38,774 bases of DNA, taken from positions 1 to 38,774 of the forward strand of contig JAHIRB010000025.1 in assembly GCA_018818885.1 (NCBI GenBank), read 5' to 3'. Made by a program: the position numbers and the translations under genes. Each line of letters begins with the position of its first letter. The first letter of the stretch is position 1. Source of the stretch: Patescibacteria group bacterium. Its GTDB lineage: Bacteria; Patescibacteriota; Patescibacteriia; Buchananbacterales; SURF-54. Below the pieces are notes generated by a model, which saw only the letters and a program-made list of their open reading frames with translations, made no database searches and was not told the DNA's origin. Positions 30,433-30,905 of this stretch are shown one piece after another.

Positions 30433-30597
30433 CTACTCCCTTTTTTTCTTGTGCTGCTGGGGTAACCCAGGCTCGGATACAAAGTAGACAGAACGCCTAT
30501 TTTTCCTACGGCGCCTTTCTTCAACTTCGTCATCACCAGATCTTTTCCTTTCTTTACTTCCTTGTATTTCTTTTTTTTTCTTCTCTTCCTCTGCCAT
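30433..30597 (-). CDS. Short highly charged protein, first gene of the operon
   Basis: 54 residues, about half Lys, Arg or Glu (MAEEEKKKKEIQGSKERKRS; later VEERRRRKNRRSVYF). It is probably disordered and could bind nucleic acid. A GGAGGGAAA site lies seven bases before the ATG. It is the first structural gene after the aromatic attenuator, with two small hairpins in the leader (30629-30646 and about 30668-30680). No family is recognised. Confidence 0.65.
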   Translation of the reverse strand: MAEEEKKKKEIQGSKERKRSGDDEVEERRRRKNRRSVYFVSEPGLPQQHKKKRE

Positions 30598-30628
30598 GCT
30601 GCTTTCCCTCCATTTGGTTTAAGTTGTA

Positions 30629-30646
30629 AAGAGCTCTTGAGCTCTT
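30629..30646 (-). promoter_or_regulatory. Perfect hairpin in the operon leader
   Basis: AAGAGCTC and GAGCTCTT with a two-base loop, about 30 bases before the ATG of the 54-aa gene. It may affect mRNA stability or translation. Confidence 0.4.
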
Positions 30647-30761
30647 AAAATTAATTGCTCATTTGCACCCATTTGAAATGGACACAATCAAACAATCAAT
30701 AACTATTATCCTTCGACTCTTCAGTCCTATTTAGAGCCGGCAAACTCATGAAAATAAAAAA

Positions 30762-30785
30762 CCGACCCTTTTTACAGAAGATCGG
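30762..30785 (-). terminator. Terminator hairpin of attenuator iv
   Basis: CCGATC/GGTCGG stem with an 11-12-base loop, followed on the minus strand by TTTTTTATTTTC. Confidence 0.8.
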
Positions 30786-30833
30786 ATTCGCTATGGTTAG
30801 TTTTTATTTTATGTATGAATGTATGTAGCAAAA

Positions 30834-30905
30834 CTAACTCACCCGAGCTTCTGGGTCAGTAAAGAAATAAAAACCGAAATACCAGTTGTTTTGCATAATA
30901 TTCAT
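30834..30905 (-). CDS. Aromatic-rich leader peptide (23 aa)
   Basis: The peptide starts MNIMQNN and continues WYFGFYFFTDPEARVS: one Trp, two Tyr and four Phe within eight codons (residues 8-15). This is the composition of known phe, trp and aro leader peptides. Its stop codon lies within antiterminator strand 2. The promoter -10 box ends 11 bases before the ATG, so the mRNA would have a 5' leader of only about four bases. It was found by reading the leader directly. Confidence 0.85.
   Translation of the reverse strand: MNIMQNNWYFGFYFFTDPEARVS

Follow-up and report, generated by a model that had tools for sequence, protein, structure and literature searches.

A predicted aromatic amino-acid attenuator in front of five orphan small-protein genes in a Patescibacteria genome

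Attenuation as known from the trp, phe and leu operons is an established mechanism of ribosome stalling and alternative RNA helices, and the genes that attenuators are known to switch encode biosynthetic enzymes, transporters or synthetases. Patescibacteria of the class considered here rely on other organisms for most of their amino acids, and a literature search of incomplete coverage found no paper on leader-peptide attenuation in Patescibacteria. The closest entry in Rfam, the phenylalanine leader RF01859, embodies the same concept of a Phe-rich leader attenuator. In the window, by which we mean the whole stretch of 38,774 nucleotides that was analysed, no Rfam family reached its threshold and relaxed thresholds gave nothing meaningful at the switch described here; the sole match to RF01859 was well below threshold and fell on an Ile leader, not on the aromatic leader.

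The switch resembles the trp, phe, leu, his and ilv attenuators in its residue-rich leader, its 2:3 and 3:4 segments, a predicted 1:2 pairing and its U-tract terminator. It differs from them in that its targets are five orphans, that the genome lacks the pathway and that the leader is nearly leaderless. In the classical systems the controlled genes have a role in supplying the amino acid that is sensed, while the products of the window operon are orphans. As a matching target is usual and not strictly required, our claim is that the locus 'works like' an attenuator with an unusual target. We suggest, with a probability of roughly 80%, that a classical four-segment ribosome-mediated transcription attenuator senses charged Phe, Tyr and Trp tRNA and controls the five-gene operon, the switch being inherited and its output replaced. 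This reading is based on computed observations: the anatomy, the mutually exclusive folds, the recurrence of the leader and its targets in relatives, the missing marker enzymes and the composition of the products.

Architecture of the leader and the switch

The original prediction described a 23-aa aromatic leader ending in TDPEARVS, with Trp, two Tyr and four Phe within eight codons, and this description is confirmed (Table 1). Codons W8 Y9 F10 G11 F12 Y13 F14 F15 are followed by TDPEARVS, so that seven of eight consecutive codons are aromatic (binomial p ~1e-5 per eight-codon window). The promoter is among the two top-scoring sites of the region; it should be noted that promoter-like sites taken together are no more frequent than in shuffled sequence (14 vs 12.9), in contrast to terminator-like sites (16 vs 3.7). 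The leader ATG starts ten bases 3' of the -10 box, and transcription is predicted to start about 4 nt 5' of this ATG, hence the leader RNA is probably almost leaderless. Switch and operon adjoin a leuA-like gene (HMGL-like plus LeuA_dimer) on its downstream side.

Table 1. Coordinates of the features described, in window positions
Feature	Position	Strand	Remark
Ile leader MIKITSTIIIEIIISQPLGGSLLRV	34154-34077	minus	with terminator
88-aa orphan	33973-33707	minus	behind Ile leader
Val/Ile/Leu leader MNKVLSNNLVITISLVVLILVVLI	33541-33467	minus	terminator present
tRNA-like 3' half GGTTCGATTCCCAATCACCCACCA	~33105-33029	minus	uncalled by ARAGORN
Leu leader MKPFSLKLNQNLKALLLLLLPFGGRFTYV	32930-32841	minus	..ALLLLLLPFGG..
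leuA-like gene	32696-31059	minus	HMGL-like + LeuA_dimer
Sigma-70-type promoter TTGACA-16-TAAAAT	30943-30916	minus	11/12 consensus matches
23-codon leader ORF MNIMQNNWYFGFYFFTDPEARVS	30905-30834	minus	ORF translation; homologous leaders in relatives
Segment 1 ACTGACCC (codons T16-P18)	30860-30853	minus	can pair with segment 2 as pause hairpin; RNAalifold
Segment 2 CAGAAGCTCGG (codons P18-R21) + GTTAGTTTT	30853-30830	minus	antiterminator 5' arm
Antiterminator outer helix, CAGAAGCTCGG with CCGATCTTCTG	30853-30843 with 30785-30775	minus	10 bp
Antiterminator inner helix, GTTAGTTTT with AAAACTAAC	30838-30830 with 30804-30796	minus	perfect 9 bp, nested in outer helix
Inner helix 3' arm AAAACTAAC	30804-30796	minus	partner of GTTAGTTTT
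Segment 3 CCGATCTTCTG	30785-30775	minus	common to antiterminator and terminator
Attenuator terminator CCGATC..GGTCGG-TTTTTT	30785-30756	minus	CCGATC arm also used by antiterminator
Segment 4 GGGTCGG + U-tract	30768-30756	minus	intrinsic terminator 3' arm
Palindrome AAGAGCTC-AA-GAGCTCTT	30640-30623	minus	perfect
Gene 1, 54 aa, basic, low-complexity, orphan	30597-30433	minus	preceded by GGAGGG; this frame has the best codon log-odds
Gene 2, 103 aa, orphan	30387-30076	minus	GAGGG site; stop overlaps gene 3 start (ATGA)
Gene 3, 97 aa, orphan	30079-29786	minus	single-sequence model ferredoxin-like, pLDDT 68
Gene 4, 59 aa, orphan	29765-29586	minus	zero Phe, Tyr, Trp
Gene 5, 61 aa, orphan	29569-29384	minus	ORF + ribosome site
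Operon terminator GCGCCAGATTTCAAGAAAGGGATCTGGCGC-TTTTTT	29350-29321	minus	-21 kcal/mol, z -4.5

The perfect 9-bp antiterminator helix that had been proposed is present and perfect, but it is only the inner half of an antiterminator whose outer helix encloses it. The antiterminator stretch folds at -20 to -23 kcal/mol (z about -3). The attenuator terminator, which sits between the leader and the structural genes, folds at -8 to -10 kcal/mol (z -2.4). The two structures are mutually exclusive, and the 5' arm of the antiterminator lies inside the leader ORF, 3' of the codons that do the sensing. A 1:2 pause hairpin is predicted by RNAalifold from the alignment of relatives described below, and is weak in the window sequence, where it has one mismatch. 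The palindrome between the attenuator and gene 1 folds no more strongly than shuffles.

The five genes and their products

The operon looks real, as had been claimed, judging by its ribosome sites, the ATGA coupling and the strong terminator at its end, and the five genes probably lie on one transcript. The predicted gene sizes and the single strong terminator after the last gene hold. One statement needed adjustment: GGAGGG sites stand at the proper distance before four of the five genes, with GAGGG at gene 2. The genes overlap (2 and 3, as ATGA) or nearly abut (3 and 4 at 20 nt, 4 and 5 at 16 nt), and genes 1 and 2 are 45 nt apart. At least 77 small ORFs (45-125 aa) of the genome carry a GGAGG site, many of them of no obvious family by eye, and its ribosomal and other housekeeping genes are mostly devoid of such strong ribosome sites.

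With codon log-odds trained on long ORFs, the annotated frame of each of the five genes scores best, at 0.07-0.12 bits per codon, which places them roughly in the upper quarter to tenth among ATG ORFs of like size; codon use is thus modest evidence that the ORFs are coding. Amino-acid composition is another, independent indication. Phe, Tyr and Trp make up 16 of the 374 residues of the products, or 4.3%; the proteome has 9.6%, and small ORFs that carry a comparable ribosome site have 8.1% (P 0.010, sampling). Such depletion is expected for proteins that need to be synthesized when these residues run short.

None of the five proteins matched Pfam, NCBIfam, PHROGs or PADLOC, and accordingly no enzyme was found among them, nor any toxin, antitoxin or defence protein (Pfam, PADLOC, PHROG). 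The absence of any family match agrees with the original statement that none resembles an aromatic biosynthesis enzyme. Proteins 2 and 3 had no homologue in the genomes of the order, the class (n=380) and the phylum (n=286) or in viral contigs, and protein 3 had none in GTDB contigs. Phage records gave no match, as did plasmid records, tried with one protein, and the genome itself holds no paralogues of the five. A single weak match of protein 2, in G024, was discarded, being a WecG/TagA-like glycosyltransferase by sequence. We also considered whether protein 2 or 3 might be a remnant of the DAHP synthase N-terminal domain, and the profile comparison was negative. By inspection, no signal peptide or membrane segment is seen in any of the five.

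Structure prediction, proposed at the outset as a check, was applied to proteins 2 and 3. The model of protein 3, made with no alignment, is ferredoxin-like with a middling pLDDT of 68, and Foldseek returned nothing below 1e-3 for it (best a phage SAM lyase at 0.014, not significant); the model of protein 2 (pLDDT 50) is unusable. With no enzyme, transporter, secretion signal or membrane segment recognisable, the five proteins most likely form a cytosolic, lineage-specific response to aromatic limitation. The stress, storage, signalling or toxin-like roles of the original prediction are conjectural.

The original prediction had named missing conservation of the five ORFs as a possible refutation, and their conservation is not supported, as proteins 2 and 3 are without homologue in the genomes searched. 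We do not take this as a refutation, since the coding signals, the translational coupling and the Phe/Tyr/Trp depletion argue for expression. The missing homologues would also suit a relic, that is, an attenuator whose former DAHP synthase or prephenate gene has been lost, with functionless chance or decaying ORFs behind it. Relatives do have an enzyme at this place, and the Val/Ile/Leu leader of the window, with a terminator and no convincing gene, indicates that empty leaders may occur. A relic would hardly be expected to keep four GGAGGG sites and one GAGGG site, the ATGA coupling and a strong terminator after gene 5, nor codon use that is best in the annotated frame in five of five genes, depleted aromatic residues and intact alternative helices (z about -3), and we regard it as improbable.

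Small, orphan, tightly packed and lineage-restricted genes could also suggest a mobile or defence-like cassette, for example a toxin-antitoxin or phage-derived system, inserted behind the leader and only incidentally under aromatic control. This seems quite improbable to us, given that PHROGs, PADLOC, viral contigs, phage DNA and, for one protein, plasmids gave no match, and that the depletion of the cognate residues fits aromatic control.

Leaders in relatives and in the same genome

Homologous leaders with the core W[FY]xFYFFTD and the same RNA segments are found elsewhere in this class of Patescibacteria, so the leader frame, on whose preservation the original prediction had also relied, is kept in relatives. 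The leader precedes DAHP synthase in G111 (MRKVALNKQFFGFYFFTDPVGSAACHTR), in G081 (MHYAHANFFGFTYFTDQAGQTV) and in further genomes of the class. In G009 (MKIHLSNNLSDSFKASGWFFSFYFTDL) the order is leuA, leader, a 148-aa orphan and DAHP synthase, and in G008 (MQNNRLNNWFFSFYFFTCR) the leader stands before a gene with weak likeness to prephenate dehydratase, which is followed by a PDH-PDT fusion and a 63-aa orphan. G009 and G008 are members of the window's own order and, like the window, have leuA upstream of the aromatic leader; in G008 a short Pro-rich leader comes between the two. The DAHP synthase leaders of G009, G111 and G081 are thus like that of the window in peptide core and four segments, and in G009 in following leuA, and differ in having an enzyme as target instead of five small orphans. 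No relative carrying the five genes was found.

In an alignment of the leader regions of seven genomes the four segments are in register, and RNAalifold, unaided, finds 1:2 and 3:4. Segments 2 and 3 of the antiterminator pair in 90.5% of cells, a figure that drops to 10-52% when the partners are slid, and three of their pairs are changed on both sides; with these seven sequences the 2:3 covariation is marginal in a shuffled-partner control (28-116 of 500 shuffles). Leader similarity exceeds full shuffles in eight of 12 relatives (p<=0.003) and a stricter core-only shuffle in G008 (0.0035), G111 (0.0075), G178 (0.02) and G091 (0.03). Together with the anatomy and the aromatic codon run, recurrence in relatives supports the proposed control by aromatic amino-acid supply.

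G081, G009 and most of the distant leaders did not exceed the core-only shuffle, so for these convergence on aromatic-rich peptides is possible. By extension, the leader of the window could have arisen here for these genes, its likeness to the others meaning only that aromatic-rich leaders look alike. Against this independent origin, which we consider unlikely, G008 and G111 do score above the core-only shuffle, the FTD codons, which are not part of the aromatic run, recur, as do the RNA segments, and leuA lies upstream of the leader in G008 and G009 too. The history would then be one in which the enzyme was replaced, not one in which a similar leader was acquired independently.

The pattern FYFFTD led to further aromatic leaders, in Uhrbacteria-type genomes. 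The G091 leader MIKQAWYSFYFFTDLKRPACLSVFK and the G178 leader MNIRKQVWFTFYFFTDSKRPACLNMF stand before a tiny basic gene and then a gene of 70-89 aa, upstream of rplJ; the tiny protein (MNRKQRRKLKR...PYFV...) has 42-53 aa. Two more copies of leader and tiny genes are found in G208 and a variant in G019. Leader and tiny genes are conserved together, which directly supports the view that in this class an aromatic leader can control small proteins that are not enzymes. These loci share with the window an aromatic leader on small proteins instead of enzymes; an HMM search detected no homology between their proteins and the five of the window, and their genomic place is different. Both small proteins are without known family at the five Uhrbacteria-type loci. 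By eye gene 1 shares a YFV..G motif with the tiny basic gene, and kinship was rejected as the HMM search was not significant; the same holds for genes 2-5 and the neighbour of the tiny gene.

The window genome is a draft of 1.35 Mb in 51 contigs (34% GC, 98.6% complete, 2.4% estimated contamination). It gave no match to DAHP synthase (PF00793) or to chorismate synthase (PF01264; controls positive), and a crude motif scan showed no other shikimate or Trp enzymes. The organism is thus apparently unable to make phenylalanine, tyrosine and tryptophan, and with both marker enzymes absent and no enzyme among the five products, the operon is not one for aromatic biosynthesis. Chorismate synthase was also missing from the examined genomes of the order, G009 and G008 included, and from G111 and G081, hence there too the leader frequently controls a solitary enzyme of a pathway that is missing. 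DAHP synthase and chorismate synthase occur together only in other families (f45, G022, G030, G161). LeuA likewise occurs without LeuC (PF00330) in the window genome, G008, G009, G111, G043 and G108. Across the class, lone LeuA, CimA, DAHP synthase or PDH-PDT under attenuators recurs with the rest of the pathway missing.

A scan of the window genome for short ORFs before terminators revealed several other amino-acid leaders. A Cys leader (MNSNKCQQNTCNCCCNCCCLPHFSIC) precedes an SbnI/SerK-like kinase and cysteine synthase (CysK), a Ser leader (..CSSSSSS..) a 163-aa protein and SerC, a Pro leader (MLYRSPQPTPPSNLDLWSVGICI) ProB and ProC/ProA, and the Leu leader the LeuA-like gene; in these four, as in classical attenuators, the enzymes match the sensed pathway. 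Orphans stand behind a second Ser leader (113 aa), behind the Ile leader (88 aa) and behind a Thr/Ile leader (66 aa). Two weaker cases are a leader rich in Gln/Asn, followed by a NadE-like protein, and a Lys-like one, followed by DapA. The aromatic leader is hence one of a set, some on biosynthesis and some on small orphans. The sensed residue is depleted in the SerC operon (Ser 2.9% vs 6.0%) and in LeuA (Leu 6.6% vs 9.5%), and the Cys operon has one Cys in 555 residues; no clear depletion is seen in the two orphans that follow the Ile leader and a Ser leader.

Leu and Ile leaders also precede LeuA/CimA-like genes in genomes of the class; Ile leaders homologous to that of the window (SQPLGG) do so in G111, G044 and G008. 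At a place comparable to that of the Val/Ile/Leu leader, a Val leader in G008 precedes orphans of 93, 108 and 75 aa. The Cys, both Ser, the Pro, Thr/Ile, Gln-type and Lys-type leaders are spread over five contigs of the genome. The tRNA-like 3' half between the Val/Ile/Leu and Leu leaders is perhaps a tRNA remnant.

With a draft of this kind one may ask whether a misassembly of a metagenome-like genome, or its binning, joined the operon to the leader. The number of contigs and the estimated contamination leave room for such an artefact, but leader and operon lie on a single continuous contig, the order from leuA to aromatic leader recurs in two genomes of the order and sibling leaders of the same style occur throughout the genome, which makes it extremely unlikely.

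Proposed mechanism and meaning

By analogy with known attenuators, the ribosome would stall in the leader according to the supply of aromatic tRNAs. With charged tRNAs it would reach the stop codon and cover segment 2, the 3:4 terminator would form and the genes would be off. When aromatic tRNAs are scarce it would stall somewhere from codon 8 to codon 15, on segment 1 and immediately ahead of it; segment 2 could then pair with segment 3 through the inner and outer helices, no terminator would form and the operon would be transcribed. It should be noted that a stall at F14 or F15 would cover part of segment 2, which is a point against this scheme. As they sit behind the attenuator, the five proteins are therefore expected during aromatic starvation. 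Behind the inherited leader, five lineage-specific small proteins would have taken the place of the DAHP synthase or prephenate enzymes.

The mechanism is old. What is new is its coupling to small orphan proteins where the pathway is absent, next to relatives in which the sensor keeps an aromatic enzyme. Further, we tentatively speculate, at rather less than even odds, that starvation sensors across the class have been unhooked from biosynthesis, that the sensor itself is conserved, and that its output alternates between a lone enzyme and lineage-specific small effectors that aid survival, or uptake of amino acids from a host or neighbour, in aromatic shortage. If the proposed aromatic control of orphan proteins is true, the inducing signal would offer a function-independent handle on the opaque small proteins of Patescibacteria, and starvation responses could be listed genome by genome.
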